The notes under the pieces were generated by a model. It saw only the letters and a list, made by a program, of their open reading frames with translations, did no database searches and was not told the DNA's origin. This document shows positions 36,978 through 52,396 of a DNA stretch of 57,634 nucleotides, in pieces. The stretch's first letter is position 1. Each line of letters starts with the position of its first letter. This stretch comes from Chloroflexota bacterium (lineage in GTDB: Bacteria; Chloroflexota; Dehalococcoidia; UBA2247; RBG-13-53-26): NCBI GenBank assembly GCA_003551705.1, contig PUNJ01000105.1, positions 1-57,634 of the forward strand, in the 5' to 3' direction. The position numbers were made by a program, and so were the translations under genes.

Positions 36978-37150
36978 TCCTACCTCCTACCATACAGAGG
37001 ATAATCTTAGCAGTTATAATCTTCAATACAGCAACAAACTGCCTCTGACTCCTGATCGTATCCACTACGAGTTTATGTTATATTTTATAGCGGTGGTCTG
37101 TCATTTAGCAAGTGATACGGCAGCTATCTGGATCAAGCAGGGGTATAGAT

Positions 37151-38338
37151 TTGTACGATACACTCATAATCGGCGCAGGGCCTACCGGGAACTACATTGC
37201 TGCTCAACTGGCCCGGTTCGGACACAGGGTCATGGTCATAGAAAGGCAGGTCCGTTTCGGCAAGTCTACCTGCTGCACAGGGATTGTAGGCAAGGAATGC
37301 CTGAATACCTTTTCCATAGGCAGGGAAGCTGTCGTTAACGAAGCAAGATCGGCCACTTTCTTCGCTCCATCCGGCAAGTCCCTGGAACTTTCCAGGCCGG
37401 ATACTCAAGCATATATCCTGGACCGAAAGATATTCGACGATTACTTGGCCCGCCATGCCCAAGCGCAAGGTGTGGAATACCTGATGAACACCCGTGTGAA
37501 TGACATCCAGACCTCCTCCACAGGCGTACGTGTGGCGGCCGCCAGCAACGGACGCAAAGTTGTGCTGGAAGGCAAGTGTGCCGTTCTTGCCTGTGGATTT
37601 GGCTCGAATTTGCCGGTAGGTTCACGCTCGGGCAAAGAGGGTGACTTCGTGATGGGTGCACAAGCTGAAGTGGCGCTATCCGACGACCGGGGAGTGGAAG
37701 TCTATTTCGGCAACAGTGTTGCACCAGGTTTTTTTGCCTGGCTTGTACCTACCATAGCCGGTCAAGGGCTGGCCGGCCTGATGACACGAAGCCATACAAG
37801 TTTGCACATGCAAGAGTTTCTCCACAGCCTGCAAGCGAGCGGCCGTATAGGCTCCCAGCAAGGAGAAGTCAAATTCGGCGGCATCCCGCTCAAACCTTTG
37901 CGGCGGACTTCCGGCAAAAGAATACTCTATGTCGGCGACGCGGCTGGGCAGGTGAAACCGACCACCGGTGGGGGTATTTACTATGGGCTGACTTGTGCCC
38001 GGATAGCAGTAGATGTCCTGCACCGGGCAATCAGCAGGAACGAATTCAGCAGCCGGACAATGTCAAGATATGACAGGCGTTGGAAGAGGCTGCTATTGCG
38101 GGAACTGAGGATGGGCCACCGGGCTCGCTGGCTATTCGAAAGACTGGATGACCATCAGATAGAACGTCTCTTCGATCTGGCGCGAGCCAGGCAGATAGAC
38201 CGATGGATGCAACACTACGATGGGTTCTCCTTTGACGGGCACGGACAGCTTCTACTGGCAATCGCCCGTTACCTGGGGCCTTTCGGTTGCTTTTCCGCAG
38301 TGCGCACGCTGTCAACCGGCTGGCTGAGACCCCGGTGA
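37151..38338 (+). CDS. Geranylgeranyl reductase-family NAD(P)/FAD-dependent oxidoreductase
   Basis: LYDTLIIGAGPTGNYIAAQLARFGHRVMVIERQ, GKSTCCTGIVGKECL, VGDAAGQVKPTTGGGIYYGLTCARIAVDVL; TTG start. Confidence 0.82.
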   Translation: MYDTLIIGAGPTGNYIAAQLARFGHRVMVIERQVRFGKSTCCTGIVGKECLNTFSIGREAVVNEARSATFFAPSGKSLELSRPDTQAYILDRKIFDDYLARHAQAQGVEYLMNTRVNDIQTSSTGVRVAAASNGRKVVLEGKCAVLACGFGSNLPVGSRSGKEGDFVMGAQAEVALSDDRGVEVYFGNSVAPGFFAWLVPTIAGQGLAGLMTRSHTSLHMQEFLHSLQASGRIGSQQGEVKFGGIPLKPLRRTSGKRILYVGDAAGQVKPTTGGGIYYGLTCARIAVDVLHRAISRNEFSSRTMSRYDRRWKRLLLRELRMGHRARWLFERLDDHQIERLFDLARARQIDRWMQHYDGFSFDGHGQLLLAIARYLGPFGCFSAVRTLSTGWLRPR

Positions 38339-38416
38339 TTAGTCCCAAACCTGTTTACCTTTCTCAAGGTTTGCGGTTAAACTGTTCCCACTTATATTAT
38401 CATGAGGAGGTGCGGC

Positions 38417-39424
38417 ATGAGTGGAAGCCTGTGGGACCGTGAATTCAAACCCTCTGATGATGCCTTGCATCCTTCGGAATCGCCGGGCAGGTGGGAGTGG
38501 TGGTATTTCGATGCCGATTTTACAGACGGCCATTCCATTGCCGGTTCTTTTCATTTTGGCAGCCCCCGACCACCCGCCTATCCAGATGCCAGGTTCATAG
38601 AGATCACACTTTACGACCCCCAGGGGAATAAGCAGCTTACCAGGAAGCGTTATCCAATTGAGCAGTGCTACGCTTCGCTGGATGCGTGCAAGGTCACCAT
38701 CGGTCCTAACATCTACGAGGGAGACCTCCCGAATTACCACATAGCGTTCCGGGAGGGCGCTTTCGGTTGCGATCTGCATTACGAGAGCCTTGTACAGCCG
38801 TACGGCCCTGTAGAAACAGGATGGGGCGGCAGCACCATGGGCTGGTCAAACAGCGCCGCCCGGTCGAAAGTTACAGGTACCATCACTTGGGAGGGCAAAA
38901 CCATCCCTGTTAGGGGCGAAGGATACCACGACCATAACTGGGCCGATGCTCCCATGTCGGCAGCTACCCTGACCGCCAACGCCTTCTGGGGCAGGCTGTA
39001 TCTGGAAGAATGGACCTTGAACTGGCAGGGTGGCCGGATGATCAGGAAAATGGACCACCGCCCGGCCGGGCGTCTGATCGTATGGAAGAACTGGGATATC
39101 GTAGCAATCACGGACAAGGTGAGCGGCACACCCACGGGGTACACCACAACAGAGACCGGCATCGAATACCCCCGCCGCATAGTTATCTCTTGCCACGACC
39201 CCGGGGTCGCCGAGGGCGATATGAGACTACAGGTAGAAAAGGTCATCCACTTCATGGACCTTCATAGCAGGCTCAAACCTTTTGAAAGGTGGTTCGAGGA
39301 AACCTTCGTTGGGCCTTCCCGCTACTACCGTCACCGCTTTGCTTATGACTTGGACCTGCTCATCTGCGGAGAGAGAGTGCATAACACAGGTTCCAGTTGG
39401 TGCGAGCACCATCGATGGGCGTGA
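38417..39424 (+). CDS. CrtC/AttH lipocalin-like protein (hydroxyneurosporene synthase-like fold)
   Basis: WEWWYFDADFTDGHSIAGSFHF, GEGYHDHNWADAPM; RBS GAGGAGG. Confidence 0.7.
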   Translation: MSGSLWDREFKPSDDALHPSESPGRWEWWYFDADFTDGHSIAGSFHFGSPRPPAYPDARFIEITLYDPQGNKQLTRKRYPIEQCYASLDACKVTIGPNIYEGDLPNYHIAFREGAFGCDLHYESLVQPYGPVETGWGGSTMGWSNSAARSKVTGTITWEGKTIPVRGEGYHDHNWADAPMSAATLTANAFWGRLYLEEWTLNWQGGRMIRKMDHRPAGRLIVWKNWDIVAITDKVSGTPTGYTTTETGIEYPRRIVISCHDPGVAEGDMRLQVEKVIHFMDLHSRLKPFERWFEETFVGPSRYYRHRFAYDLDLLICGERVHNTGSSWCEHHRWA

Positions 39425-40078: not shown

Positions 40079-40159
40079 AAACGTCTCCCCCTTATTCTGG
40101 GAAACCGCACATGAATGAGGAGCCGTAGACTGTTTCTGCCTGCTGCAGGGGGTGTCCAC

Positions 40160-42832
40160 ATGGACAAGAAAAAAGCGCCGGTCAGCAATAGCAACACTGC
40201 TGTCGAGATAAGACCCGTCATCTTGGAAAATAGCGACGCCCTTGTCTTTACCGTCGATTTTCAAGGCAAGGTACTATTCGTAAATGACCTGTGTTCGAAA
40301 TTTACGGGATACGAACCGATAGAGGTAACCGGTAGAAACCTGGGAGACTTCATCCTTCGCGACGACCGTCCATTATGGTCTGCCTTGGTCCAGCGAGCAC
40401 TCGATGAAGGCCTACCCGGAATCGGGAATGACGCTGGCGAACAAGAAATCCGCCTGGTCCACGAAGAAGCTGGGGTGATCTGGGTAGGATGCAAACTCTT
40501 CCCCATGAGCAGGGGCCGGAGAGCAATGAACACGCTGTCGGGCTTCATGAGAGACCTTACCCAGGAAAAGCAGAGAGTGGCAGACCTCGAGTCCACATTC
40601 GAGGAACTGTGGCGTGCTTTTGAAGATACCAGGCTGGAGATCTTCAGGATAGACCGCCATTGTACCATAATCAGCCTGGAAGACCAGGTCGAGAATATTC
40701 TTGGCTATGAAAGTTCTCACGTGGATGGAAAGAAACTGGATGCTGCCGGCCTTGTCAGCCAGCCTGACTTGCAGGAACTCATCACCGCCTTCCAGTGTGC
40801 GGCGCAGCATCATAGCGACCTGCTCAAGTCCATAACAGTCCGGAAGAAGAATGGGACCACCGCCAACCTCCAAGTAAGAGTCAGGTATGACCGGAATACA
40901 GGTCACCTGGAGGGCATTTTCTACGTCTTGGCCGACGCTGGCCGGCTCAGGCGCATACAAGAGGACCTGAGGGTGGGTGAGCTTAAATACCGGCTCCTGG
41001 CCGAAAATGTAACCGACGTTATCTGGACTCAAGACAACGAAGGGCGATTCACCTACCTTAGCCCCTCAGTTAGAAGCCTGATTGGGTATAGCGTGGAGGA
41101 GGCCATGCAACTCATACCTCTCGAGGCTCTCTCGCATTCCTCCCGGGAACTTGCCCAGCATACGGAAGAGCAACGGCGCCAGCTTTTCGAACGTATAGGA
41201 CCAGCCGACGGCACCGACAGCCTGACCCAGGAGTATGAGCTGGTCCGCAAGGACAGGTCGAGAATATGGACCGAAACCGCCACAACTTTGCTTCGCGACG
41301 CCAGGGGCAGAAAGGTTGGCGTGCTGGGCGTGACACGAGACATTACCGAACGCAAGCAGGCGGAGCAGAGGTTACAACTGCTCTATGAGCAAGAAAAAGA
41401 GCTAAGGCAACAAATTGAAAGAGAGATGTCCAAGAGAATTGAGTTCACCAGGGCACTGGCCCATGAACTGAAGACGCCATTGACTCCCATACTGGCTTCC
41501 GTCGATTCCCTGCTGTCCCAATTGCATCAGGAGCCTCAGATCAGCCTCGCCTCCAACATTAGCCGCGGGGCCGAGACCTTGCGCCGCAGGATTGACGAAC
41601 TGCTGGACTTGGCAAAGGGCGAAATCGGGATGCTGCAGCTGGAGCTTGAGTGGATCGACCTGCTGCCCATCTTGCGCGATTCAGCGCAGTCCATCACACC
41701 TGTATCCGCCAGACAAGGACAATCCCTATTATTGCAACTGCCTCCATCGCTCCCACTGGTGCGGGCCGACGCCGGCAGGATACAACAAGTATTGTTGAAC
41801 CTTTTGCAGAACGCCATCAAGTTCACGCCCCGTGACGGCAAGATCAAGCTCCGTGCTAAGGAACAAGACTATGCTGTAATCGTGGAAGTACACAATACCG
41901 GGCCGGGCCTGGACAAGGAGGAGCAGAATCGCATCTTCGAACCATATCACCGGCTGCCCAAGAAACAGAGCAATGAACAACTGGGCGGGCTGGGACTAGG
42001 TCTAGCCCTATGCAAGACATTGCTGGATTTGCACGGGGGAAAGATATGGAGCAGAAGCCGTCCCGGCAAAGGGACCACATTCGGCTTTACGCTGCCTCTT
42101 CAACTAGACGGTTCCCGCCCCTCTTCGCCGGAAAGGATAGCAAAGCTGTGGAACATACTGGTTATAGAGGACGATAGAGAGACCCTGGACTCCATTGTCC
42201 TCGCCTTCGCCATGGACTGGCCTGAAGCCAATGTGCTCGCAACCCGCATGGGCGAAGAAGGTCTAGACCTTATCGAATCGGAGAACCCAGACATGGTCAT
42301 CCTGGACCTGGCATTACCTGATATGGATGGGTTCGAAGTCCTGAAGCAGATCCGCCTCTTTTCTCCGGTCCCGATAGTGGTCTTGACAGTGAGCAACGAA
42401 GAGGCATGTATTATCAAGAGCTTCGAGCTGGGGGCGGACGACCATATTTCCAAACCCTATAGAAAGAGAGAGCTGATATCACGATTGAAAGCCCAATTAC
42501 GAAAACGTACGGCCACAGATGGGGCATCCCCGATCATCTGCGGTACGCTACGCCTCGATCCCACCACATTTGAGCTTGACCACGGTGGAAGGCAGGTAAA
42601 CCTTACCGTGGTCGAGGGTCGAATCCTGAAGCACCTCATGAGAAATGCAGGCCATGTGAATCCGTATTCATCAATCATGGAAACCGTGTGGGGGGAGGAC
42701 CATGCCGAGGCCATTGAGAACCTGCGTGTGTACATTTCCTACCTCAGGCGCAAACTGGAGACCGACCCCGCACAACCCAAGCTGATACGCACCAAAGCCG
42801 GGGTAGGTTACTGGTTGGCAAAGCCCGAATAA
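40160..42832 (+). CDS. Soluble hybrid histidine kinase: PAS repeats-HisKA-HATPase-REC-OmpR winged helix
   Basis: LAHELKTPLTPILASVDSL, HATPase GGLGLGLALCKTLLDLHGGKI, ILVIEDDRETLDS...MVILDLALPDMDGFEVL...KPY, C-terminal LTVVEGRILKHLMRNAGHV...ENLRVYISYLRRKLE...RTKAGVGYWL. Confidence 0.88.
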   Translation: MDKKKAPVSNSNTAVEIRPVILENSDALVFTVDFQGKVLFVNDLCSKFTGYEPIEVTGRNLGDFILRDDRPLWSALVQRALDEGLPGIGNDAGEQEIRLVHEEAGVIWVGCKLFPMSRGRRAMNTLSGFMRDLTQEKQRVADLESTFEELWRAFEDTRLEIFRIDRHCTIISLEDQVENILGYESSHVDGKKLDAAGLVSQPDLQELITAFQCAAQHHSDLLKSITVRKKNGTTANLQVRVRYDRNTGHLEGIFYVLADAGRLRRIQEDLRVGELKYRLLAENVTDVIWTQDNEGRFTYLSPSVRSLIGYSVEEAMQLIPLEALSHSSRELAQHTEEQRRQLFERIGPADGTDSLTQEYELVRKDRSRIWTETATTLLRDARGRKVGVLGVTRDITERKQAEQRLQLLYEQEKELRQQIEREMSKRIEFTRALAHELKTPLTPILASVDSLLSQLHQEPQISLASNISRGAETLRRRIDELLDLAKGEIGMLQLELEWIDLLPILRDSAQSITPVSARQGQSLLLQLPPSLPLVRADAGRIQQVLLNLLQNAIKFTPRDGKIKLRAKEQDYAVIVEVHNTGPGLDKEEQNRIFEPYHRLPKKQSNEQLGGLGLGLALCKTLLDLHGGKIWSRSRPGKGTTFGFTLPLQLDGSRPSSPERIAKLWNILVIEDDRETLDSIVLAFAMDWPEANVLATRMGEEGLDLIESENPDMVILDLALPDMDGFEVLKQIRLFSPVPIVVLTVSNEEACIIKSFELGADDHISKPYRKRELISRLKAQLRKRTATDGASPIICGTLRLDPTTFELDHGGRQVNLTVVEGRILKHLMRNAGHVNPYSSIMETVWGEDHAEAIENLRVYISYLRRKLETDPAQPKLIRTKAGVGYWLAKPE

Positions 42833-43053: not shown

Positions 43054-45291
43054 ATGACCTTTGCTAAGACAAGGCTGGAGACCGGGGGAAAGGTGGTTCG
43101 GACCGTATGCCCGCTGGGCTGCGGTATCGGTTGCGGTATTCTTGCCCACACCAAGGACAGCGTTCTCACCAGGGTTGAACCGGGGGACCATCCCGGCACC
43201 GGGCACATATGCGCCAGAGGACTGTGTGGCCCCAAACTGGTGTACCACCACGACAGGCTAAAGCATCCCTTGAAACGGCAAGGGCGGCGCGGGGAAGGAA
43301 AATGGGAACGGGTATCCTGGGAAGAAGCCATGGATTCCATCGCCGGCAGGTTCAGCGAGATAGCCGCCAAATACGGCTCCAGCGCCCTCGCCTTTGTTTC
43401 TACGGGAGTAGGCGCAATGACAAACCTGCTGACCGTTGGCTTTGCCGGGGCCTGCCAGGGGACCTTCATCCTGCCCGCCGGACTCGGCGATTCTGCAGGA
43501 CCTTGCGCCGACCAGGTATGCTTTGGTTCCTTCATGTGGTTCGGTGAGGATTACTTGAACCGCTTCGATATCCCCACGCTGTGCCTTGTCTGGGGCAATA
43601 ATCCAGCCGAAACCGAGCCGTTCAAGTGGCGCCGTATCAGGGACGCCACCGAACAAGGAGCCAGACTTATTGTCATCGATCCCAGATTTACCACAACAGC
43701 CTCGAAGGCGGATGAATATATCCCCATCAGGCGCGGCACAGATGCCGCTCTGGCACTCGGCATGATGCAGGTTATTCTGAAGAGAGAGTTGCACGATATC
43801 CCCTTCATCACGAAACATACTGTTGGACCCTTCCTGGTCAGGGATGACAACGGCCTCTTCCTCCGGGGCAGGGACATCGGCCTGCCGGATGCTGATGCTT
43901 ACCTCGTCTGGGACCAGCATACCTTCCAGCCGTCTGCACATGCGACAGCCGGGACAAAACCTGCACTCACCGGATCCTATCAAGCCTCCGGTATAGCCTG
44001 CAGGCCAGCCTTCCAAAGGTTGTCGGACATGACGGCCGGTTACACCCCGGACAGGGTGGCGGAAATTACCGAAGTACCAGCCGCGACGATCACTGCACTG
44101 GCTATCGAATATGCCGCTGCCAGACCTGCTGCCTCTTACCGGGGCATGGGCTGCACGCGCGGCTCCTTTCACGGAGACCTCAGTTTCCGCGCCATCAACA
44201 CTCTGGCGGCTATCACCGGCAATATCAGCTTCGAAGGTCACTCGACCACGATGCACGACATGGCCCTGTTCTTCACCCATGGTTTCCCATCCTTCGTCAC
44301 CCTGCTGCAGTCCTACGAAGCCATAACCGCCGGCAACCCCCACCCTATCAAAGCCTTATGGCTAGCCAGACACAACCTGGTGAACCAGGACCCCAACTTC
44401 AACAAGATAACCGGTGAGCTTATACCCGACCTGGAATTCATAGTGGCGGTGGACATGTTCATGACCACCACAGCCATGTATGCCGACATCGTCCTGCCGG
44501 TGGCCAGCTTCTACGAATTTAATGACCTGATCGTTCCCATAGGCAACGGCTCCCATCCATATCTGCAGCTCCAGCAGAAAGTGATCGAGCCTTTATATGA
44601 ATCAAAGTCCGACCTGGATATCTACAGTACCCTGGCGAAACGCCTGGGACTGGAGGGTTACCTGGACCAAGGCGATGAAGACTATATAAGGACCATGCTG
44701 GGCACGGGGCACCCATCCCTGGAAAACATTACCTTGGAGAGACTCAGGGAAAGTCCCATGCCGCCCGCACCCCATGATGTTCCCGACTTTGCCACGACTT
44801 CCGGGCGGCTCGAGTTCTACTGCGAACGGCTGGTCCACCTTGGCCAGGAGTTGCCGATCCACATGGAACCCCTGGAGAGCAGCTGTTCGAAACTGGCGGA
44901 CAGGTACCCGCTGTCTTTCTCCCAAACACACCCGAAATACCGGCTGCACACCATGTTCACCAACATACCGTGGATACGTGAACTCGACCCTGAACCGCTT
45001 CTTGAAATGAACCCCGTCGATGCTGCTCCGAGAGGGATCGAGGACGGTGATCTGGTACGGGTGTACAACAATAGAGGCGAAATCAGGCTCAGGGCCGCGG
45101 TGCATCCAGGCATCAGACCCGGGCAGACCAATGTATGTCAAGGCTGGTCTCCAAGCCACTATCATAGCGGGACTCACCAGGCATTGACCCATGAAACCAT
45201 AAACCCTGCTCAAGCTGCTATATACGAGCCCAACTCGGCCTTCTATGATGTGCAGGTCGAGGTTGAGAAAGCGAGCGAAGAGCAAACGTGA
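43054..45291 (+). CDS. Molybdopterin-dependent oxidoreductase (DMSO reductase/MopB family), catalytic subunit
   Basis: N-terminal FeS motif CPLGCGIGC...HICARGLCGPK, WEEAMDSIAGRF, GNNPAETEP, IVIDPRFTTTASKADEYIPIRRGTDAALALGM; RBS GGGAGG. Confidence 0.9.
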   Translation: MTFAKTRLETGGKVVRTVCPLGCGIGCGILAHTKDSVLTRVEPGDHPGTGHICARGLCGPKLVYHHDRLKHPLKRQGRRGEGKWERVSWEEAMDSIAGRFSEIAAKYGSSALAFVSTGVGAMTNLLTVGFAGACQGTFILPAGLGDSAGPCADQVCFGSFMWFGEDYLNRFDIPTLCLVWGNNPAETEPFKWRRIRDATEQGARLIVIDPRFTTTASKADEYIPIRRGTDAALALGMMQVILKRELHDIPFITKHTVGPFLVRDDNGLFLRGRDIGLPDADAYLVWDQHTFQPSAHATAGTKPALTGSYQASGIACRPAFQRLSDMTAGYTPDRVAEITEVPAATITALAIEYAAARPAASYRGMGCTRGSFHGDLSFRAINTLAAITGNISFEGHSTTMHDMALFFTHGFPSFVTLLQSYEAITAGNPHPIKALWLARHNLVNQDPNFNKITGELIPDLEFIVAVDMFMTTTAMYADIVLPVASFYEFNDLIVPIGNGSHPYLQLQQKVIEPLYESKSDLDIYSTLAKRLGLEGYLDQGDEDYIRTMLGTGHPSLENITLERLRESPMPPAPHDVPDFATTSGRLEFYCERLVHLGQELPIHMEPLESSCSKLADRYPLSFSQTHPKYRLHTMFTNIPWIRELDPEPLLEMNPVDAAPRGIEDGDLVRVYNNRGEIRLRAAVHPGIRPGQTNVCQGWSPSHYHSGTHQALTHETINPAQAAIYEPNSAFYDVQVEVEKASEEQT

Positions 45292-45878
45292 ATAAGCGGT
45301 ACGCCCTCGTCATCGACATGCACCGGTGCACAGGCTGCCAGGCCTGTGTGTTGGCCTGCAAGGTAGAGCATGATTTTCAGACAGGCTCAGGCATGAGGAT
45401 GGACAGGAGCGGCAGACATTCTATCGGGATGGATACAGCCGCGGGAGAGTTCCCCAACCTGTTTATGCACTTCCGGCCAATTGCCTGCATGCACTGCGAG
45501 AGTCCGCCCTGCGCCGGCGTCTGCCCAGAAGGAGCCCTATACAAGGATATTGGAGGCATAGTGGTCTTGGACCAAGCAAAGTGCAACGGCTGCCAGGCAT
45601 GTATACCGGCTTGCCCGTACCAGGCCGTTTTCTACGAAGCTGGCCGAGATTCGGTGTTCAAATGCGATCTTTGCAGTGAGCGGGTGAAGGATGGATTCGA
45701 ACCCTTCTGCGTCGTCTGCTGCGGCGAGGAAGCAATCTATTTCGGCGACATCATGGACCCGGGCAGCCGGGCTTCACAAATCATAGCGGGAAAGAGTGCG
45801 GTCCCACTCAAAGAGGAACTATTGACAGGGCCCGGCACTCACTACTGTCCGCCAAGGCCCCGGCGCGGTCGGGGCTAG
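45288..45878 (+). CDS. 4Fe-4S dicluster ferredoxin-type subunit (DmsB-like)
   Basis: CTGCQACVLACKVEH, CMHCESPPCAGVCPEGA, CNGCQACIPACPYQA, CDLCSERVK; GTG start overlaps the stop of the catalytic subunit. Confidence 0.9.
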   Translation: MNKRYALVIDMHRCTGCQACVLACKVEHDFQTGSGMRMDRSGRHSIGMDTAAGEFPNLFMHFRPIACMHCESPPCAGVCPEGALYKDIGGIVVLDQAKCNGCQACIPACPYQAVFYEAGRDSVFKCDLCSERVKDGFEPFCVVCCGEEAIYFGDIMDPGSRASQIIAGKSAVPLKEELLTGPGTHYCPPRPRRGRG

Positions 45879-45905
45879 CCATCAACTTTGGAGGAGGTGA
45901 ACTTG

Positions 45906-47000
45906 ATGTTGACCAAATATGACGAGTTTATGTGCCACCAGATACCCTCTACCATGGACCATCCGTATACCAGCGCTCGAGAATGGACGGAGAGAACATG
46001 GTTCAGCGCCCATGACATCTCGGGGAAGATGCACATGGTAAGCAGCATCGGCCTGTATCCCAATCGCAATATCATCGATACCTACGGCGCAGTAGCTATA
46101 GATGGCAAGATGGAGTACCTGGTAAGGGCTTCACGCGAACTCCGGCCGGCGCGGGACGAAACAAAGATCGGGCCCTTCACCTATGAAATCGTCGAACCGA
46201 TGAAGAAAGTTCGCAAGTCACTCGCCGAGAACGAACATGGTCTGAGCTACGACATCCTCTTCGATGCGTCCTTCCCGGCCCTTGAGGAACAACCGCAGTT
46301 CTCCCGGCACAGGGGCAGGGTGCAGGAGAACATCGTTCGTTATGTGCAAATGGGTCGACCCAGCGGCTGGATCAAGGTGGACGGCAAGACCTACGACATC
46401 GACAGCAACACCTGGCGAGCAGAGAGAGACCATTCGTGGGGCATCAGGCGGGGAGGAGGGGTGCCGGAAACGGGCGTGCAGCCCGGCGAGATTCCGGAAG
46501 GGTACCTTTTCAACTTCCTGGTGGTCCAGTTTGATTCCTGGTGCGCCAGCTATCATATCAGAGAGCTATGGGACGGCACGCGGCTGATGTTCAGCGGCGG
46601 CATAGCCTACCCCCTGGGGAGCCCGGTCAAAGAAATACCTTTAACGGACGTAGACCATTTCTTCAAATTCCGGCCGGATATGCGATTTCCGACCGGTGCC
46701 GATGTAGTTTTGAAGGGACCGGACGGCCTCAAGAAAGAGCTTTCCCTCAAGCCCTTGGGTTGCTGCTATCTGAGGCCGGGCGGGTACTTCGGCTACAACG
46801 AATTCACCCATGGCTTGTGGATGGGCCAGTCCTGGATGGACGGGCTCAGGCTGGATATATCGGATCCGGCGGTGGTGAGGGACATAAGCTTCCTTGACGA
46901 CGTAATGTGTGAAGTCAGGTGCGGCGACGAAGTGGGCTACGGCATCACCGAGATCGTGGTTACGGGCAAGTACCCCAGGTATGGGTACGAGGGTTACTAG
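45906..47000 (+). CDS. Lipocalin-like protein (ERDHSWGIR motif; DUF7064/7065-type), paralog 1
   Basis: 364 aa; AGGAGG RBS; co-linear similarity to paralog 2. Confidence 0.72.
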   Translation: MLTKYDEFMCHQIPSTMDHPYTSAREWTERTWFSAHDISGKMHMVSSIGLYPNRNIIDTYGAVAIDGKMEYLVRASRELRPARDETKIGPFTYEIVEPMKKVRKSLAENEHGLSYDILFDASFPALEEQPQFSRHRGRVQENIVRYVQMGRPSGWIKVDGKTYDIDSNTWRAERDHSWGIRRGGGVPETGVQPGEIPEGYLFNFLVVQFDSWCASYHIRELWDGTRLMFSGGIAYPLGSPVKEIPLTDVDHFFKFRPDMRFPTGADVVLKGPDGLKKELSLKPLGCCYLRPGGYFGYNEFTHGLWMGQSWMDGLRLDISDPAVVRDISFLDDVMCEVRCGDEVGYGITEIVVTGKYPRYGYEGY

Positions 47001-47067
47001 CACTCCTTCAAAGGGTGGCGGCTACCGGCCCGGTGATCGACCCAGTATGGATGGAAAGGGGTCTTGA

Positions 47068-48162
47068 ATGCTGACCAAATACGATGAATATCTGTGCCAT
47101 CAAATACCGTCCACATTCGATCATGTGGAGACAAGCAGCCGGCAATGGACGGAGAGGATCATACTCCATACCCATGACACGACAGGGCAGCTTCACATGA
47201 GCAACGGGTTCGGACTCTACCGGAACCGGAATATCATTGATGCTTTCGCCTGCCTTACAGTCGATGGCAAGACCCAGTACAACGTCAGGGCTTCTCGAGA
47301 GCTTCTGCCGCAGATCGATGAGGTCAAGGTAGGCCCGTTTTCCTACGAAGTAACGGAGCCTCTCAAGAAGGTCCGCTATACTCTGCAGGACAACGAATAC
47401 GGTCTCAGCTACGATCTGATGTTCAATGGAGTAATGCCCGCGCATGAAGAGGATGCCCAGTTCTTCCGGTTGAAAGGCAGGGTGGAAGAGGATATGCAGC
47501 GTTTCGACCAGGTAGGAAGGGCCAGCGGTTGGATCAAGGTAGAGGGCAAGACCTACAGTCTCGATGAATCGAATTTCTATGTGGAGAGGGACCATTCATG
47601 GGGAATCAGGCGGGGCGGGGGCGTACCCGAAACAGGAGTGGAACCCGGTGACATCCCCGAAGGCTACCTCTATAGCTGGGGCGTCATACAGTTCCCCTCC
47701 TGGGGAGCCGCATATCACATCAGGGAAAGCTGGGACAGCAAGCCGCTACTGGCCAGCGGCGGCGTCTTCTACCCCTATGGCACAGATAAGGAAGACCAAC
47801 ACTTCACCGCGATCGATCACAACTTCCAGCTTCGCCGTGACCTGCGCAAAATCAATTCGGGAGAACTCACCTTTCATCTGGCCGGGGGAGAACAGAAGAC
47901 CATTTCCATGCGCCCTCTGAGCTTCTGCTGCCTGAAGGCGGGCGGATATTTCGGCTACAGGGATTTCGTCCACGGCCAGTGGATGGGTCCGTACTTCATC
48001 GACGGTTTCAAGCTCGACCTTTCGGACCCTGCGGTTCTGGCTGACGTCTCTTTCCTGGACAATACGTCATGCGAGTTGCAGTGCGATGGTGAGACAGGCT
48101 ACGGGGTTTTCGAACTGGTCATAACGGGCAAATATACCAAGTACAATTTCGCTGGATACTAG
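47068..48162 (+). CDS. Lipocalin-like protein (ERDHSWGIR motif; DUF7064/7065-type), paralog 2
   Basis: 364 aa; MLTKYDEYLCHQIPST..., ERDHSWGIRRGGGVPETGV shared with paralog 1. Confidence 0.72.
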   Translation: MLTKYDEYLCHQIPSTFDHVETSSRQWTERIILHTHDTTGQLHMSNGFGLYRNRNIIDAFACLTVDGKTQYNVRASRELLPQIDEVKVGPFSYEVTEPLKKVRYTLQDNEYGLSYDLMFNGVMPAHEEDAQFFRLKGRVEEDMQRFDQVGRASGWIKVEGKTYSLDESNFYVERDHSWGIRRGGGVPETGVEPGDIPEGYLYSWGVIQFPSWGAAYHIRESWDSKPLLASGGVFYPYGTDKEDQHFTAIDHNFQLRRDLRKINSGELTFHLAGGEQKTISMRPLSFCCLKAGGYFGYRDFVHGQWMGPYFIDGFKLDLSDPAVLADVSFLDNTSCELQCDGETGYGVFELVITGKYTKYNFAGY

Positions 48163-48196
48163 GTTGGAATTTCAATTCGTTGAGGAGGTATAACCG

Positions 48197-49183
48197 GTGA
48201 CAAGCAGAGATGTTTATGAAGAATTGGCAGACATGCAGGACAAGGAGGATGTCGTTGGTATCCCGAAGACCGAGTCCTTCCTCAAGCTCCTGCGGCTTCA
48301 GTTTACTCCGGAGGAAGCCGAGCTGGCTTTGAAAGTGCGTTTCACACCCATGACCCTGTCCGAAATTCACGAGAAGACGGGCATGGACAAAGAACGGCTC
48401 AAAAACATGCTCCTGACCATGGCTGACAAGGGGACCGTGTTTTATGACCCGGCCGAAAAAGACCCTGCCTACAAGGTTGTAGGTTCGGCGGCGCCCGGAC
48501 TGATTGAGACCGGCCTCTGGGGCAACATAAAGTACCCCTACAGCATAGAGTTGGGCAAGGCGCTCTACAATGTACTGAAGGAATGGTGCGATGCGAAGCT
48601 CTGTACGCTGGGCTTTCCCTTCGCTCCGGTATGGGGTGGCACGATCGCTCTGCCCGTAGACGCCCAGCCCGCTGAAAACCTGGCCGAAATAATGAAGCAG
48701 AACGACCATTTCAGCGTGTCTCCGTGCCCCTGCCGCCTCTCTCACTGGCTAGTGGACCCAGGAAATCACTGTGATCACATTTTGGAGACCTGCCTGCACA
48801 CCGGCGAACTCAGTCGCTGGGCAGTGAAACACGGCATGGGGCGCCAAATAACACTTGATGAGACACTGGCCCTGCTCGAAGCTGCGACCAGGGACGGCCT
48901 CGTATCGACACTCAATATCAACGGATGTGTCTGCAATTGCTGCGTTGATTGTTGTGCCATCTTTCACGGACAAAAGAAAGGCGTTTCCGTCTTCGTCCCT
49001 TCACCGTTCGAGGCCAAGGTAGATGAAGATGCCTGCAATGCATGCGGCGACTGTGCTGATCGGTGTCCGGCAGATGCCATCCAGGTAAATGGCATCGCCG
49101 CTGTCCAGTCTGAGAATTGTCTCGGCTGCGGGGTCTGCGTTCCAAATTGCAGGAGCCAGTCCATGAAGCTGGTCCGCCGTTAA
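48197..49183 (+). CDS. 4Fe-4S binding protein with N-terminal helix-turn-helix-like region and Cys-rich centre
   Basis: CVCNCCVDCC, C-terminal ferredoxin CNACGDCADRCPADA and CLGCGVCVPNC; GTG start after GAGGAGG. Confidence 0.8.
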   Translation: MTSRDVYEELADMQDKEDVVGIPKTESFLKLLRLQFTPEEAELALKVRFTPMTLSEIHEKTGMDKERLKNMLLTMADKGTVFYDPAEKDPAYKVVGSAAPGLIETGLWGNIKYPYSIELGKALYNVLKEWCDAKLCTLGFPFAPVWGGTIALPVDAQPAENLAEIMKQNDHFSVSPCPCRLSHWLVDPGNHCDHILETCLHTGELSRWAVKHGMGRQITLDETLALLEAATRDGLVSTLNINGCVCNCCVDCCAIFHGQKKGVSVFVPSPFEAKVDEDACNACGDCADRCPADAIQVNGIAAVQSENCLGCGVCVPNCRSQSMKLVRR

Positions 49184-49227
49184 CGACTCAGTTGATTCTA
49201 TATATCCACTTATGGAAGGAGGCAACC

Positions 49228-50604
49228 ATGGATCAGGACCTTACGGGCAAACAAACCGAGCTGGTAGCCTGGATTCAAAAACAGATGCCCCATGCCACCG
49301 ACGTATCCATCTCGGAAATGGAGAAACCGGGTATGGGCCTCTCAAGCGAAACATACCTGCTGCATTTGCACTGGAAGGAGGGGGGCGTACCGAAGACTAC
49401 GGGAGCGGTACTTCGTGCGGCACCCCAAAGCCGGGGAATCTTCCCCGAGTATGATCTGGGCCTCCAATTCCGCATAATGCAGATTCTCCAGGCGAACACC
49501 GATGTGCCCGTTGCCGAGATGTTATGGTTGGAGGAGGACCCGGCCGTGCTGGGAGTGCCGTTCTTCCTGATGAAAAGGTTGGAGGGCGACGTTCCCCAGG
49601 ACTTCCCATCCTATCACGGCACAGGCATGTATTTCGAAGCGACACCCGAGATCCGGCGCAAGATGTGGTGGGACTCTCTTGACAAGCTGGTAAAGATTCA
49701 CAAACTCGACTGGAAGGGATTGGGGCTGGATTTCGTCGGCGTTCCCGGGCCGGGGATAGCGCCGGTTAAAAGACAAATCGATTATTGGGACCATCACCTC
49801 AAGTGGCTCAAGGAGACTCCTGAAGAGTCGCATCCCACCATGGAATCCACTCTGACCTGGCTGAAAGAGAACATGTACGAGCCGGAGCGGGTCACGCTAT
49901 GCTGGGGTGACTCTCGCATAGGCAATGCCCTCTTCAGCAGGCCGGACCGGGACGTACTGGCCATCATGGACTGGGAGATGGCCTTCCTTGGCGACCCGGA
50001 GGCGGACCTGGTCTGGTTCTACACCATAGACAAGCAGGCCAGCCGGGGCTACGGCCTGCGGCCCCTGGAAGGAACGCCAACCCAGGAGGAAGTGGTCGCC
50101 CGCTATGAGCAGCTTACCGGCTGGAAATCGAAAAACCTCGTCTACAATGAAGTCCTGGCCACCTTCAGGTTCGGACTGACCGTAATCGCCGCCATGAAGA
50201 ACTTGCGCAGCCGGGGGATCCCCATTCCTGACGAAATGCTACTTAACAACTTTCCCACGCAGCACTTGTCAAAGCTCCTGGGGCTGCCCTCGCCGGGACC
50301 CGATCAGTATGCTGAGGAAAAGGTAGACCCCAGCCAGGTTGTGGCCACAGTCCAGTTCCACTTCACGGGACCCAGCGGCTATGACTGGTACCTGCTCTCG
50401 GACAAGGGAAGCCTGTCCAAGCACACGGGCTGTGTGGACAATCCCACTTGCACCATAAAGGTTTCGCCTGAGGACTGGAAGGCTATCCAGAGCGGTGATC
50501 TGAACCGGTTGGAGGCCTGGTCAGCCGGAAGATTGGTAACGGAAGGCGATCACGGATTACTGTCCTTCTTGGAAGCCGACATAGCCAAGTACAGCCAGAT
50601 GTAG
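49228..50604 (+). CDS. APH-family phosphotransferase fused to SCP2 sterol-carrier domain
   Basis: Kinase motifs LCWGDSRIGN and IMDWEMAFLGDPEADL; C-terminal SCP2-like YDWYLLSDKGSLSKHTGCVDNPTCTIKVSPEDWKAIQSGDLNRLEAWSAGRLVTEGDHGLL. Confidence 0.82.
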   Translation: MDQDLTGKQTELVAWIQKQMPHATDVSISEMEKPGMGLSSETYLLHLHWKEGGVPKTTGAVLRAAPQSRGIFPEYDLGLQFRIMQILQANTDVPVAEMLWLEEDPAVLGVPFFLMKRLEGDVPQDFPSYHGTGMYFEATPEIRRKMWWDSLDKLVKIHKLDWKGLGLDFVGVPGPGIAPVKRQIDYWDHHLKWLKETPEESHPTMESTLTWLKENMYEPERVTLCWGDSRIGNALFSRPDRDVLAIMDWEMAFLGDPEADLVWFYTIDKQASRGYGLRPLEGTPTQEEVVARYEQLTGWKSKNLVYNEVLATFRFGLTVIAAMKNLRSRGIPIPDEMLLNNFPTQHLSKLLGLPSPGPDQYAEEKVDPSQVVATVQFHFTGPSGYDWYLLSDKGSLSKHTGCVDNPTCTIKVSPEDWKAIQSGDLNRLEAWSAGRLVTEGDHGLLSFLEADIAKYSQM

Positions 50605-50633
50605 ACCCGGGGTGCATCACGATACGCCCCCCT

Positions 50634-50680
50634 GGCCGATGGGGTACCACCTTACCCCATCGGCCACTCCTTTTGTTCCT
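50634..50680 (+). terminator. Rho-independent-type terminator
   Basis: GGCCGATGGGGTA-CCACCT-TACCCCATCGGCC (13 perfect bp) then ACTCCTTTTGTTCCT. Confidence 0.85.
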
Positions 50681-50884: not shown

Positions 50885-52396
50885 CTAGCTGCTCCTGGCC
50901 GGCTCCGGCGCGCCTGCGGCCAAGGACTCCTTCTTCTTGTGGGGAACCGAGAACTCCCGTTCGATGGCCTCGCGGTGAATGGAATTCATGGCACAGAAGG
51001 GAATCAGCCTCGCCTTCGTCTGCTTGTCCAGAACACCGTAATGCAGGCAGCAATGATGTGCTCGATCAACATCAAAGTTGTACGGGTCCATGAAGTGCAT
51101 GGTCGAGATGGTCAGCCAGTTGTTCGGCATCCAGTCCTCGGTCATATGCCGGTAGGCCTTGTAGTTCTTGGCAGCAATGACAGGCAGAAACTTGAGCCAC
51201 AACCTGGGACTCACATACTTAAGAAAGCCCAGGGCCAATTCATACTGCAAGCGGAGCCTGCCTGTATGCTTGGCCAAAACCGTCTTCATATGGTCGTAGA
51301 AGAGATCATTCTTGACATGTCGAACGATAGGCTTCAGCTTTCCCTTTTCCACAGAGACCATGGTTATAACGCCGCAATGGGGGTGCGGAGCAGCATCGAC
51401 CCTGGTGGGACTCAGTTTGGTTATCATCTTGCCCAGGGTATTGTTCATGGGCAGGGAATAGAAATCGCTCCGTAACAACTCGCCGCCTGTCTGCTCTTCA
51501 CAGAGTCGTGTAATGTCGGACACCGTAATTCGCTTGTTCCTCAGGTCCTGTAATTCAATCCGACCCGAGAAGCTGGCTGGCTGGAAAACGAGGTGTTTGA
51601 CGATATCCGAATTCTCCGCAGCGAACCTGACCATATCTCCAACCTGGTGATCGTTGATAGACTTGACCAGGGTAGGCACGAGGACAACCTTTTTGAAACC
51701 AATCTTGCGGGCGTTCTCCAACACCTTCTGCTTCACAGGCCAAAGGTCGCGTCCGCGTATGTGCATGTAGGGTTCGGCCGACATACCGTCAAATTGCAGA
51801 TAAAGGTATACATTGAGATCACAGAACTTCTTGAAATAATCGATATCCTCCGCAAACCGTATCCCATTGGTAGCCAGGAGGGTATAATCATAACCCAGTT
51901 CCCTTTCCATGGCTATGATGTCCAGCAGGTCCTCTCTCAGCGTGGGCTCGCCCCCGCTGTGCTGTACACCGTTTACACGGACCGGGTGGTTCACTTCCTG
52001 GGTGTATTCCAGGATCTGTCTGATCTGGTCCTTGGTAGGCTCATACAGATATTCGTCCGCAAGAGCAGCGGAAAAACAGACAGGACACTTCAGGTTGCAC
52101 CTGTTGGTCAGGTCCATGATCAACAACGTGGTGTGCGATTTGTGGTTGAAGCAAATGCCACAGTCCAGTGGACAACCTAGCTTCGACTCCAAGGGCTGCC
52201 CGACGCACCGACCGTCATCTAGGTATTTCCCTGCCTTGAGGTATTGGTCATATTCACTCCAGATGATGTCCTCATAATTGCCATGCTCCGGACAGGACTT
52301 CTTCATGATGACCTGTCCATCGATCTCCCAGAGTTGCGCGTCAATGACCTTCAGATCTTCGGGACAAATGGATCGCGTCTCGCTTAGCAGCTTCAT
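50885..52396 (-). CDS. Radical SAM protein of the tetraether synthase (Tes/MJ0619)-like group
   Basis: MDLTNRCNLKCPVCF (CxxxCxxC), SCPEHG, LGCPLDCGICFNHKSHTTL, NGVQHSGGEPTLREDL, C-terminal HHCCLHYGVLD...IPFCAMNSIHRE. Confidence 0.75.
   Translation of the reverse strand: MKLLSETRSICPEDLKVIDAQLWEIDGQVIMKKSCPEHGNYEDIIWSEYDQYLKAGKYLDDGRCVGQPLESKLGCPLDCGICFNHKSHTTLLIMDLTNRCNLKCPVCFSAALADEYLYEPTKDQIRQILEYTQEVNHPVRVNGVQHSGGEPTLREDLLDIIAMERELGYDYTLLATNGIRFAEDIDYFKKFCDLNVYLYLQFDGMSAEPYMHIRGRDLWPVKQKVLENARKIGFKKVVLVPTLVKSINDHQVGDMVRFAAENSDIVKHLVFQPASFSGRIELQDLRNKRITVSDITRLCEEQTGGELLRSDFYSLPMNNTLGKMITKLSPTRVDAAPHPHCGVITMVSVEKGKLKPIVRHVKNDLFYDHMKTVLAKHTGRLRLQYELALGFLKYVSPRLWLKFLPVIAAKNYKAYRHMTEDWMPNNWLTISTMHFMDPYNFDVDRAHHCCLHYGVLDKQTKARLIPFCAMNSIHREAIEREFSVPHKKKESLAAGAPEPARSS

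Follow-up and report, generated by a model that had tools for sequence, protein, structure and literature searches.

A clustered molybdoenzyme, kinase and lyase operon as a candidate route for oxygen-independent entry into a tertiary carbon in Chloroflexota

The DNA analysed here (the window, 57,634 nt) is contig C82 of the 2.81-Mb draft genome (host G000) of a Chloroflexota bacterium. It carries a six-gene plus-strand operon (43054-50604) that we read, on balance, as a route by which a saturated branched (tertiary) carbon in a hydrophobic compound of isoprenoid type can be attacked without oxygen, through molybdenum-dependent hydroxylation, phosphorylation and phosphate elimination. In order, the genes encode a MopB catalytic subunit of the DMSO-reductase superfamily, an iron–sulfur (FeS) subunit, two lyase paralogs (PSL1 and PSL2, after phosphosteroid lyase), a Cys-rich protein and a kinase fused to a sterol-carrier (SCP2) domain. 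The host appears to be an anaerobe, independent of oxygen, and no haem-copper oxidase was found in its genome, which is 94.8% complete.

Small gaps or overlaps separate the genes (−4, 24, 67, 34 and 44 bp in gene order), the overlap being the 4 bp (45288-45291) shared by the open reading frames of MopB and the FeS subunit. An earlier note, made from the letters of the window, had listed six same-strand genes of these families, in this order, tightly spaced and closed by a terminator, and that description was confirmed with small corrections. Direct reading of the letters showed a purine-rich Shine-Dalgarno-like stretch before five of the starts, so the ribosome-binding sites that the note gave to every gene hold for all but the FeS start, which overlaps MopB. 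The intrinsic terminator (50633-50666, plus strand) does have a perfect stem, yet one of 14 rather than 13 bp, with a 6-nt loop, a T-rich tail and a folding energy of −28.6 kcal/mol (z −5.5 against shuffles).

The two lyase paralogs point to the chemistry. PSL1 (45903-47000, plus strand) and PSL2 (47068-48162, plus strand) are DUF7064/7065-type proteins, 55% identical to each other, which score 344.9 and 339.0 bits against NF053593, the model of the Rv3169 family, whose cut-off is 150. Their only solved relatives are the 25-phosphosteroid lyase (25-PSL) entries 9fzn/9g2i and 9g4c, at ~30% identity (9fzn, E 7.9e-42 for PSL1 and 1.8e-40 for PSL2). ‘Lipocalin-like’, the label first given to them, survives as a guess at the fold; the Rv3169/25-phosphosteroid-lyase family is the informative name. 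Since these proteins are relatives of 25-PSL, phosphorylation most likely serves to activate a hydroxyl for elimination. The earlier proposal, in which a lipid-like molecule is oxidised or hydroxylated anaerobically and then phosphorylated, lacked this step but otherwise came close to what the homologies indicate. Most likely, PSL1 and PSL2 are C-O lyases that eliminate phosphate from a phosphorylated alcohol to yield an alkene: D7, H12-Q13, R139, R146, Q149, the RDxSWGxR motif and H252 (PSL1 numbering) are common to 25 homologues and 25-PSL. The paralogs fall into different clades of the PSL tree, with support of 99 for each local group and of 100 for the node joining these groups with other close homologues, while the deeper subgroup order is weakly supported (10-14); actinobacterial Rv3169-type proteins nest inside the same family. 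Two different lyases per cluster is a recurring arrangement, as paired PSL genes are also present at the homologous loci L049/L052 and L118, the latter combining a copy 59% identical to the 25-PSL reference with a neighbour 58% identical to PSL1.

The last gene (49228-50604, plus strand) encodes an APH-fold kinase (PF01636, 69.0 bits) with a C-terminal SCP2 domain (PF02036, 34.9 bits), both above cut-off. Its best solved match, 9fsg (E 3.5e-44), is deposited only under the name ‘aminoglycoside phosphotransferase-like protein’ and is probably 25-hydroxysteroid kinase (25-HSK), to judge from an entry code near those of 25-PSL. Rv3168 (3ats, E 9.9e-32) and ACAD11 (8v3v, E 2.7e-17) are further relatives, and the protein also matches 3dxp, a putative APH annotated as an acyl-CoA dehydrogenase. 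The catalytic motifs WGDxRxGN and DWE are intact and align with 9fsg. As 25-HSK phosphorylates steroid tertiary C25 alcohols (PMC8449060), the fusion protein is a probable tertiary-alcohol kinase; a role as an aminoglycoside resistance enzyme was rejected in view of its nearest relatives. Homology thus provides good support for a predicted kinase–lyase function.

This pairing reaches well beyond the host. A contig search queried with PSL1 alone yielded no confirmed relative, and one queried with a PSL alignment returned named loci; the PSL genes sampled, gathered by PSL similarity, describe neighbourhoods and are not a random survey. Of the 103 non-redundant PSL genes, 73 have a same-strand APH-type kinase gene no more than 3 kb away (within 200 bp for 62 of the 103), and 13 of the 30 PSL genes without one nearby are at contig ends. 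The pair also occurs in Spirochaetes, Desulfobacterota, Proteobacteria and Actinobacteria. Three loci—one from a Spirochaetes and two from deltaproteobacterial metagenome-assembled genomes—have no adjacent APH kinase and carry, immediately upstream of PSL, a gene for a PPDK/PEP-utiliser-type phosphotransferase (L147:6561-8954, L150:6512-8911, L152:6576-8984), which apparently replaces it. The kinase-then-lyase pairing outlasts this exchange of kinase fold, which speaks for phosphorylation as the step preceding elimination. A tungsten aldehyde oxidoreductase (AFOR) gene accompanies PSL at 11 non-redundant loci, the host's own on contig C52 among them, on the same strand and no more than 2.5 kb away; at least 8 close paralogues of this AFOR are encoded in the host, with 48-64% identity to the one associated with PSL.

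The redox part of the operon begins with MopB (43054-45291, plus strand; 745 aa), identified by Pfam Molybdopterin (176 bits), alignment, tree and fold match, and continues with a DmsB/PsrB-style electron-transfer subunit (45288-45878, plus strand). Both have Pfam/NCBIfam matches far above chance, although MopB exceeds the cut-off of no NCBIfam subfamily. Its FS0 cysteines are C19/C23/C27/C53. By alignment only, D146, invariant in 21 homologues, occupies the Asp molybdenum-ligand column of NarG/PcrA/EbdA and is the predicted ligand; the neighbouring Asp indicated by the phmmer alignment alone was displaced, as MAFFT with references and invariance among homologues favour D146. The 16 cysteines of the FeS subunit were placed for four [4Fe-4S] clusters, and FeS–MopB fusions at L033 and L096 support this subunit as the partner of MopB. 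The Cys-rich protein (48197-49183, plus strand) comprises an N-terminal region without a known fold, a CxCR...CNCCxxCC centre and a C-terminal 2x[4Fe-4S] ferredoxin; it is a presumed electron carrier, with close homologues adjoining PSL/kinase/AFOR genes at L047 and L050. For MopB itself, we infer a role as a hydroxylase.

A precedent exists in Sterolibacterium denitrificans, whose anaerobic cascade for the cholesterol side chain comprises S25DH (steroid C25 dehydrogenase), 25-HSK, 25-PSL and S26DH (PMC7411048, PMC8449060, PMC11061730). There, experiments have shown that a molybdenum enzyme makes a tertiary alcohol with water, which kinase and lyase then dehydrate at the cost of ATP (PMC7411048, PMC8449060), and the cascade might also serve non-steroidal isoprenoids (PMC7411048). 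The operon shares with it the DMSO-reductase-superfamily enzyme, the APH-type kinase, the 25-PSL-family lyase and the oxygen-independent logic, but differs in clustering its genes, in having two lyase paralogs and in fusing SCP2 to the kinase; no lyase candidate is present near the 25-HSK gene of S. denitrificans (PMC8449060). The combination, for which the earlier note knew of no described pathway, is thus partly covered by a published molybdenum-hydroxylase/kinase/lyase cascade.

By this precedent, MopB and its FeS partner would use water to hydroxylate a tertiary carbon; the electrons would leave by way of the FeS subunit and perhaps also of the Cys-rich ferredoxin protein. The kinase, assigned by homology and motifs, would phosphorylate the tertiary alcohol with ATP while the SCP2 domain holds the hydrophobic substrate, and PSL1/PSL2 would expel phosphate as 25-PSL does, leaving an alkene. 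Judging from gene neighbourhoods, another MopB from that clade could then oxidise the newly allylic carbon, with AFOR and CoA-dependent steps to follow; the genes for these would lie outside the operon, in other parts of the genome or in related genomes. At L033 (genome G009, same family but another genus), kinase-SCP2, PSL, FeS, an FeS–MopB fusion and a second MopB form one run, matching a two-hydroxylase cascade; a pyruvate-formate-lyase-like glycyl radical enzyme is encoded nearby (L033:3888-6440). For a complete C26-hydroxylation cascade, which would combine two molybdenum hydroxylases with kinase and lyase, the candidates are one MopB in the window, two at L033 and a further MopB-FeS set in the host, whose MopB (C94:3-698 and C73:57892-59298, with its FeS partner on C73) is probably a single gene divided between the ends of two contigs and a candidate second hydroxylase. 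Overall, the host has dozens of MopB matches, an unusual wealth of molybdenum and tungsten enzymes. The substrate may be a sterol, a terpenoid or a hydroxyacyl-CoA; the SCP2 domain and flanking geranylgeranyl-reductase and CrtC-like genes hint at an isoprenoid.

Several observations weigh against this reading, most of them concerning MopB. Tertiary C-H hydroxylation in S. denitrificans is periplasmic and proceeds with cytochrome c or artificial acceptors (PMC7411048), whereas the window MopB, from an uncultured anaerobe, has no twin-arginine (Tat) motif and is predicted to be cytoplasmic, and the operon contains no gene for a haem-b gamma subunit. In a MopB tree of 686 columns, in which PcrA and EbdA were partial sequences and S25DH was not included, NarG, PcrA, ClrA and EbdA form the type II clade (support 100), which includes the characterised hydrocarbon hydroxylase taken as reference, EbDH, and the window MopB stands outside it with Chloroflexota homologues. 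The phylogeny suggested in the earlier note thus yields a separate clade outside type II, to which S25DH belongs, with poor support (27) for the order between this group, type II and DmsA-like enzymes. Further departures from type II are the first FS0 ligand, a Cys (C19) in place of His, the shorter chain and a score of 338.5 bits against the TIGR03479 cut-off of 984.75, which no protein in the host genome passes. On score, FS0 and tree, MopB was rejected as a canonical S25DH/EbDH. What it has in common with the type II enzymes EbDH, PcrA, ClrA and NarG is the Asp in the molybdenum-ligand column and the nearest solved folds, PcrA (TMq 0.82-0.83) and then EbDH (0.76), for a predicted model built from 19 sequences only (mean pLDDT 80).

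Gene linkage raises a similar difficulty. MopB adjoins PSL/kinase genes only in the window and at L033, that is, in two genera, and of 10 PSL-bearing genomes checked in other phyla, 9 are without a MopB from this clade, the exception being the Desulfobacteraceae genome G302 (59% identical, with an FeS partner); the kinase–lyase pair therefore does not need MopB. Of the refuting outcomes named in the note, a neighbourhood not kept in relatives is therefore borne out in part for MopB, whose linkage extends to one other genus only, and not for the kinase–lyase core. Conversely, plasmid pLA3 of the alphaproteobacterium Novosphingobium pentaromativorans carries a MopB-FeS pair of the same layout (L110:11956-14846; MopB with 36% identity across 98% of its length) that is followed by an FAD oxidoreductase gene and lies between TonB-dependent receptor genes, with no PSL or kinase alongside. 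As for the lyases, C11, R55, E79 and W156 do not vary within the PSL group of the window but are different in 25-PSL; these differences and the low identity to 25-PSL suggest that the substrate probably differs as well.

Flanking genes provide further context. Directly upstream of the operon, a PAS-histidine kinase-receiver-wHTH hybrid regulator is encoded (40115-42832, plus strand), which from its position possibly regulates it. Just before that gene lie those of a geranylgeranyl-reductase-family flavoprotein (37112-38338, plus strand; TIGR02032, 188 bits against a cut-off of 158.8) and a CrtC-type lipocalin protein (38402-39424, plus strand; PF07143, a marginal 23.2 bits against 22.5). Double bonds of isoprenoids are the target of both families, and the two genes are possibly related to the operon. 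Convergent with the operon, this bacterial genome encodes a tetraether lipid synthase, Tes (50885-52396, minus strand; NF045702, 474 bits against a cut-off of 450). Near the start of the window, a BaiCD/FadH-type NADH:flavin oxidoreductase (565-2571) reaches 450.6 bits with NF041087, below the cut-off of 825.

Given the weaker linkage of MopB, the kinase–lyase core could stand while MopB and its FeS subunit are merely co-transcribed and carry out another redox step (alkene oxidation or S26DH-like allylic hydroxylation) or an unrelated reaction. The restriction of the linkage to two genera, the absence of this MopB from most PSL-bearing genomes of other phyla and the presence of host paralogues elsewhere (C6, C99, C94/C73) all favour such an arrangement, but the tight spacing, 4-bp overlap and shared terminator, together with the same set and two MopB genes at L033, make it rather unlikely. 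MopB might instead work reductively, by dehydroxylation or alkene reduction, in an operon that removes a hydroxyl during fermentation or respiration. The molybdenum catechol dehydroxylases of gut bacteria set a precedent, and an apparent anaerobe without haem-copper oxidase whose predicted cytoplasmic MopB has FeS partners only would suit it. We consider this quite improbable: reductive dehydroxylation would make a kinase–lyase dehydration superfluous, and the hydroxylase EbDH is among the nearest solved folds, as is, admittedly, the reductase PcrA.

Other alternatives concern the substrate. A phosphorylation-elimination sequence has been attributed to ACAD10/11 and LvaA, and the kinase and PSL proteins could likewise convert a hydroxyacyl-CoA to an enoyl-CoA, with SCP2 binding the acyl-CoA. 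Such a role, which we regard as unlikely, agrees with the kinase matches to ACAD11 and 3dxp and with the thiolases, DUF35 proteins and CoA-transferases encoded beside the PSL-PSL-kinase run of L052, where an alcohol dehydrogenase gene is also present; yet the closest solved kinase is 9fsg, the closest solved lyase is 25-PSL, and the operon contains no acyl-CoA dehydrogenase or CoA-transferase gene. Very improbable, in our estimation, is that the genes serve to alter lipids of the host itself, of the envelope or of isoprenoid type, and not to break down a substrate, a function suggested for the mycobacterial region Rv3167c-Rv3169 in connection with PDIM. Rv3168 and Rv3169, an adjacent pair of an APH-fold kinase and an NF053593-family protein that resembles the operon's own, do appear in a PDIM paper (PMC5340868), and actinobacterial Rv3169-type proteins nest inside this family. 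The geranylgeranyl-reductase, CrtC-like and tetraether-synthase genes around the operon would fit as well. At L033, though, no such flanking lipid genes are labelled, and homologous pairs have neighbours of catabolic appearance, namely AFOR, thiolase, CoA-transferase and ABC-type binding-protein genes. The annotated actinobacterial kinase-Rv3169 pairs differ from the operon in that no MopB, FeS or AFOR partner was recovered alongside.

While the principle of hydroxylation, phosphorylation and elimination is already described from S. denitrificans, the novelty lies in the clustering of kinase, lyases and molybdenum enzyme, the distinct MopB clade, an anaerobic host among the Chloroflexota and the wide distribution of the kinase–lyase pair. 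A literature search that reached few subscription papers found no report of this gene set in Chloroflexota. Only a few anaerobic routes are known into saturated isoprenoids, compounds that are persistent in anoxic sediments; the operon and its relatives supply named candidate genes, with a co-encoded MopB, in deep anaerobic lineages. They also suggest what the widespread Rv3169-family proteins, those of mycobacteria included, may do, and likewise the products of APH-like genes that carry an antibiotic-phosphotransferase annotation. Anaerobic entry into carbon of the cholesterol-side-chain type, known from one laboratory bacterium, may thus be widespread among anaerobes.

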